From assembly GCF_019669965.1 (NCBI RefSeq), contig NZ_AP019781.1, positions 620,001 through 684,000 on the forward strand: DNA of 64,000 nt, written 5' to 3'. The translations under genes were made by a program, and so were the position numbers. The notes beneath the pieces are model-generated. The model was not told the DNA's origin, made no database searches, and worked only from the letters and a program-made list of their open reading frames with translations. This DNA comes from Methanoculleus chikugoensis (GTDB lineage: Archaea; Halobacteriota; Methanomicrobia; Methanomicrobiales; Methanoculleaceae). Positions 55,840-58,932 of this stretch are shown here, piece by piece (positions within the stretch are counted from its first letter, which is position 1; every line of letters starts with the position of its first letter).

Positions 55840-55955
55840 ACACGATAGTATCGCCAAGTTCTCATATAAACGTTTTGAAATGCCCCGAAAATTTCGTTCA
55901 ATGGCAGGATGGGTTAAGGGAAAGTGTTTAAGTTTGCACTGCCCATATATAATTG

Positions 55956-56360
55956 ATGAAGCAAGGTCTGCTCACCGATCGCCAGAAGGAAGTGTTGCGC
56001 TACCGGAAGAAGGGGTTGACGCAGCAGCAGATTGCGGAGATCATCCATACCTCGAAAGCCAACGTCTGCACCATCGAAAAAGCTGCTATCGAGAACATCT
56101 CGCGCGCACGTGAGACGCTCGAATTTCTCTACACCCTTGACGCCATACACCTCTGTACGCTGAAAAGCGGCCTCGACCTGCTCAAGGCCCCCGAACTCAT
56201 CTATGCCGAAGCTGAGAAGCAGGGATTGAAGGTCAAATACGACACGATATCGCTCATAAACAGGCTTCGGGATGCAAACCCCGAGCGGTTCAGCGGGAGA
56301 CAGGTCCGCGAGGATGTTGAGATCTATATCAACAAAGACGGCGATCTCTACTTCGGGTGA
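55956..56360 (+). CDS. Tfx-family DNA-binding protein
   Basis: An archaeal transcription regulator of 134 residues. The N-terminal 55 residues are a helix-turn-helix: [20 protein letters not shown] and [19 protein letters not shown], the sigma-70-region-4-like start of the Tfx family. The C-terminal part ([39 protein letters not shown]) is the Tfx effector-like domain. In methanogens Tfx is linked to the fmdECB (formylmethanofuran dehydrogenase) promoter, but no such operon is in the window. A TTG directly before the ATG is an alternative start. It diverges from mtd, so it may act on the region between. Confidence 0.85.
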
Positions 56361-56369
56361 TATGGTTTC

Positions 56370-56432
56370 GTGGGCGCGCACACGGGCTCCGTGCGGGAGC
56401 GGGAGCCCCGCGGGAGCATGCCTCGCGCCCAC
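56370..56432 (+). other. Hairpin after Tfx gene
   Basis: GTGGGCGCG (56370-56378) and CGCGCCCAC (56424-56432) are perfect complements around a GC-rich core with further GGCTCC/GGAGC pairing, 9 bases after the Tfx stop. It could be a terminator-like or RNA structure, without a T run. Confidence 0.5.
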
Positions 56433-56589
56433 CTGCCATGAACGCAGTCAGTGCAGCCCTTCATTCATCTCCCCGCCCGCTCAATCGGGCGAACCGGTGC
56501 CGCGCCTGCGGCGCTGGAACGGTTTGTGCAAAATCCCGAATGAGCCGATAACAAGGTTTATATCTCATTTTAAGTAATGTTTAAGAAAC

Positions 56590-56970
56590 CGCTCTGCACG
56601 GTTCCGCCCGGATCCGGGGGATATCCGGCACCATAAGTGCCACTGATTCCCGAGATCGGTTCTCATATCGCATGTATGTGGATTGAGGACTCGCGGCGGG
56701 GGTGCAGGAGGTAAGAGACAAGGTCGAACCCTCCTTACGGAGGGCCGATGTCGATATGGAGTTGTGCTCGTCACAACGGGATGACAGGCTGGATCTGATC
56801 GAGACGCTGGGCCAACGCCAGTGCAGCGCGCCCGGTTCCGGGAAGAGAGTTCCCGGGAGCGTCGAAGAGTCAGGATCTATTGGCGACGACTGGAATGTAC
56901 CCGGTGCACACCGGGACGGCAGTGAGATCGGTCGAGGCGCACGGAGACGAATGTCTCTGTGCCTTCACGT
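56590..56970 (+). ncRNA. Candidate structured RNA upstream of rpl3
   Basis: A TATA box GGTTTATATC (56555-56564) is followed by no start codon at a useful distance. The region has at least five hairpins: CCCTCC-TTAC-GGAGGG (56729-56744), GTTGTG-CTCGT-CACAAC (56761-56777), CCGGGAA-GAGAG-TTCCCGG (56838-56856), CCCGGT-GCAC-ACCGGG (56900-56915), and a ten-pair stem with GAAT loop (56939-56962). Codon use in all frames is unlike the genes nearby. It does not carry the GAAAGTC of RNase P RNA or the SRP helix-8 motif. It may be a separate RNA or the long leader of the ribosomal operon. The 5' and 3' ends are guesses. Confidence 0.5.
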
Positions 56971-57162
56971 TCCGCTGCCTCCATCAACTGTTTCCCTAAC
57001 GCTACGGCAACATGGCGTGGCGTTCGATATCCCGCCCCATCCGGGTTCGCCAGAGGGTTTACCGTGCCGGCGCGTCCGGTACGGGGCCCGGCGCACGCAT
57101 CGCACTGCGGTGATCCTGCAGTCGATGCCGCACGCTACAACGCATGAAGGGTTGATTGACAA
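56971..57162. other. Region before rpl3
   Basis: No gene and no clear TATA box near the rpl3 start. This fits either a long ribosomal-operon transcript beginning near 56590 or a separate promoter that I cannot see. Confidence 0.4.
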
Positions 57163-58176
57163 ATGCCGAATTTACACAGACCACGCAGAGGATCCCTCGC
57201 GTACAGCCCGAGAAAACGGGCAAAAAGCCCGGTTCCCCGCTACGGTTCATGGCCGGAGTATACGGGAACCCCGGCTGTGCAGGGGTTTGCAGGCTACAAG
57301 GTGGGAATGACCCACGTCATCATGGTCGATGACCACAAGAGCAGCCCCACCGAAGGCAAGGACGTGATGGTGCCGGTGACCGTGGTTGAGGTCCCGCCCA
57401 TGCGGGTGGCCGGCGTGCGCGCATACGGTGAAGACACCTACGGAAAGCACGCGCTGACCGAAGCGTGGACGACCGATCTCGACGAGGAGTTGTCCCGCCG
57501 GATCAACGTCCCGAAGAACCACGACACCGCTGCCGCCCTCGACGCCATCAAGGCCGCCGTCGGCGAAGGCAAGGTCACGGAACTCTACGCTCTCGCCTAC
57601 ACCCGGCCCATGGAACTCACCGGCGTCCCGAAGAAGGTCCCCGACCTGATGGAGATGCGGATCGCCGGCGGAAGCCTCGAAGACCAGATCGCCTATGCCG
57701 GCGAGATTCTGGGCAAAGAGATCGTGATCTCCGGGAACCTCGAGGTCGGCGAGTACGTCGACGTCACCGCCGTCACCACCGGTAAGGGCACGGAAGGCCC
57801 CGTCAAGCGGTGGGGCGTCCAGGTCCGGAAGCGGAAACACTCCCGCGGCGGCAAGAAGCGCCACATCGGCAACCTCGGTCCGTGGCATCCGCACCACGTC
57901 AGGTGGCAGGTGCCCCAGATGGGCCAGATGGGCTACCAGCAGCGCACCGAGTTCAACAAGCGGATCTTGAAGATTGGCACCGACGGCGCCGACATAACGC
58001 CGGCAGGCGGGTTCCTGCACTACGGCCTTGTGCGCGGCCCCTACGTGCTGATCAAGGGCTCCGTCCCGGGGCCGAACAAGCGGCTGGTCCGGATACGCTC
58101 CGCGATACGGCAGGGTGAACACACCGTTCGCACGCCGACGATCAACTTCGTCAGCGTGCAGAGTCAGCAGGGGTGA
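57163..58176 (+). CDS. rpl3: Ribosomal protein uL3
   Basis: First gene of the archaeal S10-type cluster here; binds 23S rRNA near the peptidyl transferase centre. The protein of 337 residues begins [20 protein letters not shown], typical of archaeal/eukaryotic L3 with its basic N-terminal extension. [31 protein letters not shown] and [19 protein letters not shown] are conserved parts; the last of these is the central loop reaching the catalytic centre. The length is usual for archaeal L3. It is followed by rpl4 after 6 bases. Confidence 0.96.
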
Positions 58177-58182
58177 GCAGCG

Positions 58183-58932
58183 ATGAAGGCACAGGTTCGA
58201 ACACTGACGGGCGATATCGCCCACGAGATCGATCTCCCGGAGATCTTCGACGAAGAATACAGGCCCGACCTGATTAAGCGGGCAGTCCTCGCGCTCCAGA
58301 GCACCCGGTTCCAGCCGCACGGGACAAACCCCTATGCGGGCATGCGCACCTCCGCAGAGTCCTGGGGCAGCGGCCGAGGTGTCGCCCAGGTCCCCCGCCT
58401 GAAGAACGGCAGCAGGGTTGCCCGGGTTCCGCAGGCAACCGGCGGGCGCGCAGCGCATCCCCCGAAGGTCGAGAAGATCCTCGTCAAAGAGATCAACAGA
58501 AAAGAGAAACGCAAAGCTTTCAGGTCCGCCATCGCCGCCAGCACCTACACCGACCTGGTTCGGGGACGCGGGCACCTCTTCGAGGGCGATCTCCCGCTGG
58601 TCTTCGAGGACCGGTTTGAGGAGATCACCCGCACCGGCGACGTCATCGCGGCGCTCACTGCGCTCGGTGTCTATGCCGACGTCGAGCGGGCGAAGGGCAG
58701 CCGGAAGGTCCGTGCGGGGCGGGGCACCATGCGTGGCCGCCGCTACAAGCAGCGCACGAGCGTTCTGATCGTCACCGGCGGCGAACCGCTCCGGGCAGCC
58801 CGGAACCTCGCGGGCGTCGATGCCGTGGCGGTCGACCAGCTCAACGCCGAACTCTTAGCACCCGGCACGCAGGCAGGGCGCCTGACGGTCTGGACGGAAT
58901 CTGCGATCAGGAGACTGGAGGAGTTCTCATGA
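58183..58932 (+). CDS. rpl4: Ribosomal protein uL4
   Basis: A protein of 249 residues in the large subunit that lines the exit tunnel. The tunnel loop is visible as [20 protein letters not shown]-like ([17 protein letters not shown]) and [38 protein letters not shown] near the C-terminus is typical. The ATG at 58183 follows GGGGTGAGCAGCG. It overlaps rpl23 by four bases (ATGA). It is the archaeal/eukaryotic L4e-type, longer than the bacterial form. Confidence 0.96.

Follow-up and report, generated by a model that had tools for sequence, protein, structure and literature searches.

An RNA-only member of the predicted RF03135 leader family precedes rpl3 in Methanoculleus chikugoensis and can be traced to the inside of a methyltransferase gene

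The rpl3 operon of Methanoculleus chikugoensis opens with a long leader that belongs to a known predicted leader family, RF03135 (L4-Archaeoglobi), in an RNA-only form whose origin can be traced to the inside of a protein gene, the PF02598 (Methyltrn_RNA_3) methyltransferase. It lies in the 64,000-nucleotide stretch of contig NZ_AP019781.1 analysed here, hereafter the window. The origin of the leader from what is now a pseudogene was unexpected; that origin and the RNA itself are both well supported.

No recognisable gene lies between the end of a Tfx-like ORF at about 56361 and the rpl3 start at 57163. The longest ORF across the leader (56702-57310, 202 aa) matched no Pfam family, and indels that are not multiples of three occur within the leader among members of the genus. 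The TATA box, the gene-free stretch and the five hairpins within 235 bases described in the original prediction were all recovered in place, and the hairpins it called perfect or near-perfect are perfect in four cases and carry a single G-U pair in the fifth (Table 1). These hairpins are real and beyond chance: four perfect small-loop hairpins of at least 6 bp in 235 nt were equalled by 0 of 500 dinucleotide shuffles (mean 0.23), and the predicted fold energy of the 580-nt leader is -269.9 kcal/mol (z = -5.07), whereas an rpl3 segment of the same length gives z = -1.39. Across the order, most rpl3 loci keep the TATA box about 550-620 nt 5' of the gene; the distance is about 425 nt among the Methanospirillum-like members, and at a few other loci it is about 360-500 nt. 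The ribosome-binding region of rpl3 (AGGATTGAT) is unusually uniform order-wide (L002-L081) and differs from a plain Shine-Dalgarno sequence. Directly 3' of the Tfx-like gene (55953-56360) is a long G+C-rich inverted repeat (GTGGGCGCG...CGCGCCCAC, 56367-56433), possibly a terminator or a second structured element.

Table 1. Features of the rpl3 leader and its surroundings, in positions of the window
Feature	Position	Strand	Basis
TATA box TTTATAT, rpl3 operon	56557-56563	+	sequence; position conserved across the order
Putative transcription start	about 56583-56588	+	sequence
5' domain, variable stem-loops after the first ~30 nt	56583-56712	+	local alignment, RNAalifold
Suggested P1ext, 5' strand GGTCGAACCC	56722-56731	+	RNAalifold; pairs with 57043-57051
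Hairpin 1 CCCTCC-TTAC-GGAGGG	56729-56744	+	perfect; RNAalifold
Suggested P1, 5' strand GATGTCGA	56747-56754	+	RNAalifold; pairs with 57024-57031
Conserved RNA core, model R1	56751-56891	+	122.8 bits
Hairpin 2 GTTGTG-CTCGT-CACAAC	56761-56777	+	perfect
Suggested P2, 5' strand GGGATGACAG	56778-56787	+	pairs with 56988-56996
RF03135 match (P3 CTGA/TCAG, P4, hairpin 3)	56795-56873	+	48.9 bits
P4 with asymmetric 3x1 internal loop (GGGC-CAA-CGC...GCG-C-GCCC)	56809-56833	+	alignment
Hairpin 3 CCGGGAA-GAGAG-TTCCCGG, variable stem of RF03135	56838-56856	+	perfect
Hairpin 4 CCCGGT-GCAC-ACCGGG	56900-56915	+	perfect
Hairpin 5 CACGGAGAC-GAAT-GTCTCTGTG	56940-56961	+	one G-U pair
Suggested P2, 3' strand	56988-56996	+	
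Hairpin between the 3' strands	56999-57023	+	
Suggested P1, 3' strand	57024-57031	+	
Suggested P1ext, 3' strand	57043-57051	+	
rpl3 ribosome-binding region GAAGGGTTGATT	57147-57158	+	sequence; order-wide consensus AGGATTGAT
rpl3	57163-58176	+	PF00297; first gene of the operon
rpl4	58183-58932	+	PF00573; second gene of the operon

To which family does this RNA belong? Rfam matches the whole RF03135 model (positions 1-85) to the leader, with a score of 48.9 bits (cut-off 34.5). Sequence and structure agree across the 85 positions, and both elements precede rpl3-rpl4-rpl23-rpl2; Pfam places rpl3 and rpl4 downstream of the leader, in keeping with the family's location upstream of rplC-rplD-rplW-rplB. 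The family is present in Rfam 14 and 15. The original prediction had offered either a new structured RNA or a long leader, and had named a significant Rfam hit beforehand as evidence against it. Such a hit was found, and it names the ribosomal protein leader of the second alternative; the leader reading is therefore supported and a new RNA family is not, while the structured nature of the RNA stands. The absence of RNase P and SRP RNA motifs was borne out as well. The sole genomic matches to archaeal RNase P RNA (RF00373, C1:1483530-1483872) and archaeal SRP RNA (RF01857, C1:153451-153760) lie elsewhere, so the leader is neither. Weaker second RF03135 matches of 30-33 bits, below the cut-off, occur at a distance from the best match in two Methanoculleus-genus genomes (G074 C2:407764-407870 and G065 C52:3557-3663).

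In its main-text passages, the study that described the motif (Eckert & Weinberg 2020, PMC7247131) gives its lineage as Archaeoglobi and rates it borderline, whereas the element in the window has a core of about 144 nt in Methanomicrobiales, within a non-coding leader of about 580 nt. Among Methanoculleus species the sequence from about 56746 to 56900 is almost invariant, loops included, well past the 85 positions of Rfam. The conserved core is about 144 nt rather than 85. A 144-position model built from an alignment of 36 leaders (R1) matched 45 of 45 sources searched, including PF02598 genes of other families outside its building set. R1 detects the core in 193 of the 232 class genomes, almost always as a single copy (as in the window's own genome), and in 126 of the 135 good-quality ones; RF03135 itself is found in 126 of the 232. 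Across the phylum RF03135 is present in 223 of 393 sampled genomes. Of 50 loci inspected, 49 have it upstream of rpl3, and the remaining one showed no rpl3 within the stretch available. Methanospirillum-like leaders (L028, L034, L035, L040, L050) are shorter, at about 425 nt, with diverged cores that score 32-38 bits with R1 and a hairpin 2 of GCCGUG/CACGGC. The internal loop of P4 has a counterpart in halobacterial genes (GGGU-CAA-UUGC...GCAA-C-ACCC) and is a candidate protein-binding site. A k-turn at P4 was considered by eye and set aside, as the GA pairs are not conserved.

Where does the core come from? Outside Methanomicrobiales, RF03135 falls within the frame of a PF02598 gene preceding rpl3 in all 40 loci examined, 30 of 30 halobacterial and, by coordinates, 10 of 10 from other families. 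The gene encodes a SPOUT-type methyltransferase related to archaeal MT0001 (PDB 1k3r) and human C9orf114 (PDB 4rg1), and in most haloarchaeal loci the rpl3 ATG follows its stop codon by only a few bases. In most lineages, then, RF03135 shares its sequence with a protein-coding gene, so that the same codons serve as two messages at once. At the two P3 strands the fraction of synonymous codons that are identical between classes is 0.69-0.74, compared with 0.31-0.37 elsewhere in the gene, the pattern that dual coding predicts. The gene alone does not yield an RF03135 match, as shown by genomes that have PF02598 without one, among them the Sulfolobus control; PF02598 with no RF03135 match listed was also seen in G253, G302, G331, G354, G361, G415, G424 and G478. 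Our literature searches found no prior report of the overlap, although its absence is unproven, and the main-text passages of PMC7247131 make no mention of the motif falling within a reading frame.

In the window the core shares homology with central codons of this gene (REGVVLSHNG...VRIYSRDG) and occupies the same place before rpl3. The PF02598 genes are intact, whereas the leader is frameshifted and non-coding, and a PF02598 profile search of the window's whole genome returned no match. Within the class the gene survives in just 4 of 232 genomes (three genera, two families), each carrying the RNA inside it, and in genomes that lack the gene, spread over many genera, the core is near-invariant. 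The non-coding leaders can be aligned to the DNA of the intact genes (CGAGAAGGAGTTGTGCTCAGTCACAACGGGATGATAG...GGATCTGA...GGGTGGACGT...ACGAGCCC...TCAGGATCTATTCGCGAGAC...GGTGCACACC). The core of the window scores 117 against gene DNA (177-base reference; shuffle maximum 40), and hairpin 4 corresponds to the intact-gene codons FWCTPE (TTCTGGTGCACACCAGAA). Upstream, the first ~30 nt of the 5' domain (AAGAAACCGCTCTG) resemble the 5' UTR of the intact gene in gene-bearing relatives: local alignment of the 5' part scores 48-49 against L042 and L062 (shuffle maxima 27-33), with weak or absent similarity to the gene-bearing L084 and L085. The 3' part of the leader (56988-57051) has no detectable similarity to the 3' half of the gene. 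Relative to the gene, the gene-less leaders carry frameshifting indels, whose counts are approximate because the alignments used small gap costs (even the intact gene of L062 comes out with a +1 and a -1 that cancel each other); a few leaders, diverged or truncated, aligned too poorly for counting.

Frameshifts and deletions have thus eroded the PF02598 gene in most Methanomicrobiales, whereas the RNA core survives together with part of the 5' UTR. That the RNA descends from inside a gene lost in most of the order had escaped the original prediction. Was the gene lost once? Gene-bearers occupy two places in an L3 tree, and a topology in which all gene-less members group together, as a single loss would require, is rejected (p-AU 0.0045). 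Unless the gene was regained, which is conceivable for the two lineages that bear it, there were therefore at least two losses of coding, each sparing the RNA.

Because only the core aligns order-wide when the whole leader is subjected to MAFFT and RNAalifold, the rest was analysed clade by clade, using a tree-aware covariation simulation after the R-scape idea on RNAalifold structures. Mean covariation was 2.36 in the Methanoregula clade (simulated -0.02 +/- 0.21) and 0.88 in Methanoculleus (simulated 0.03 +/- 0.10); structures slid along the alignment gave 0.07-0.64 and 0.04-0.21, respectively, a comparison that favours the RNAalifold structures because they came from the same alignments. 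Restricted to the structure, the test found two significant single pairs in the Methanoregula clade and one in Methanoculleus, and an all-pairs R-scape-like test on 22-23 sequences found none. Covariation had been proposed as a check on the original prediction: the excess holds for the structure as a whole, with individual pairs rarely significant. The covariation-supported structure that characterises RF03135 is thus found at the level of helices and of the whole structure, and covariation supports a folded RNA overall. Most of the signal comes from local hairpins. In other clades hairpin 2 gives way to GUGGUG/CACCAC, GCCGUG/CACGGC or GGACU/AGUCC.

The long-range helices P1 and P2 are only suggestive. 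The strands of P1ext and P1 vary between clades with pairing kept, both strands of P1 having changed (GAUGUCGA/UCGAUAUC, CCGAGA/UCUCGG, AUGAGUG/CACUCAU), and within clades neither helix shows significant covariation. When P1 strands were swapped, pairing within a leader scored 16.2 versus 14.4 with other clades, a modest difference in which a few sequences were mis-anchored. The CCC of hairpin 1 has an alternative pairing with 57043-57045. No convincing P1 or P2 complement was found in gene-bearing relatives, so these helices look newer. The ribosome-binding consensus AGGATTGAT is complementary to strands farther 5' in some clades, and a pairing that sequesters it is plausible in Methanoregula and Methanolinea; no covariation support was found for it, and sequestration of the rpl3 ribosome-binding region is at most suggested by these models.

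What might such a leader do? We think it likely that the L3-L4-L23-L2 operon carries in its 5' leader a cis-acting element of the RF03135 kind, derived from the PF02598 gene and mediating feedback, most probably through L4. An operon protein, most likely L4, would bind the core once its amount exceeds that of rRNA and lower expression of the operon, with the P3/P4 core and its 3x1 internal loop as the putative binding spot. In haloarchaea, binding would block ribosomes in the methyltransferase frame and so shut off the coupled translation of rpl3, which starts close behind; where the gene is missing, P1 and P2 would link the core to the rpl3 ribosome-binding region. Feedback by L4 is suggested by analogy. 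The L4 leader of the Escherichia coli S10 operon shares with the leader described here the type of operon and the proposed ligand, and homology between the two is not claimed. More tentatively, at somewhat short of an even chance, a dual-coding RNA may once have controlled the next gene by translational coupling; the protein gene would then have died repeatedly and independently, with selection retaining the RNA alone and new long-range helices taking over from the coupling.

Must the ligand be L4? With the same leader and the same origin, L3 or another operon protein could take its place, a reading we hold to be unlikely though worth weighing. The element lies directly upstream of rpl3, and comparison with the 23S rRNA of this genome found no sequence mimicry that would link it to L4 (best ungapped match 10, against a median of 11 after shuffling). 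In its main-text passages PMC7247131 assigns L4 by precedent alone, under a 'prior ligand' rule, and states that ligand predictions are uncertain and vary greatly in confidence. Those same passages weigh on the other side: a bacterial leader in the same type of operon is known to bind L4, and in multi-gene operons the ligand is often not the product of the nearest gene.

Two further readings would dispense with cis regulation. An independently functioning non-coding RNA, excised from a long transcript, would fit the large compact fold (z = -5.07), the long-range closing helices and the single genomic copy; the linkage to rpl3 at 49 of the 50 loci inspected across the phylum and the location of RNase P and SRP RNA elsewhere make it improbable. 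We disfavour still more strongly, as very improbable, the reading in which RF03135 is conserved PF02598 coding sequence misread as RNA and the window holds a functionless, decaying pseudogene. The motif does lie within a conserved reading frame in most of the phylum, and it was originally rated borderline in the passages cited above. However, the core is near-invariant in gene-less genomes of many genera and its stems covary, the P3 strands show exceptional conservation of synonymous codons, and the Sulfolobus control and several sampled genomes have PF02598 without an RF03135 match.

A borderline 85-nt Rfam prediction thus becomes a phylum-wide element with strong support, and the lineages that lack the protein and keep the RNA are natural experiments. 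If the reading of repeated gene death after dual coding is true, it would be a prokaryotic case in which a protein gene became an RNA-only regulator, several times in parallel. If regulation is confirmed, the leader would be among the few archaeal cis-regulatory RNAs and a clean example of a gene decaying into a regulator.
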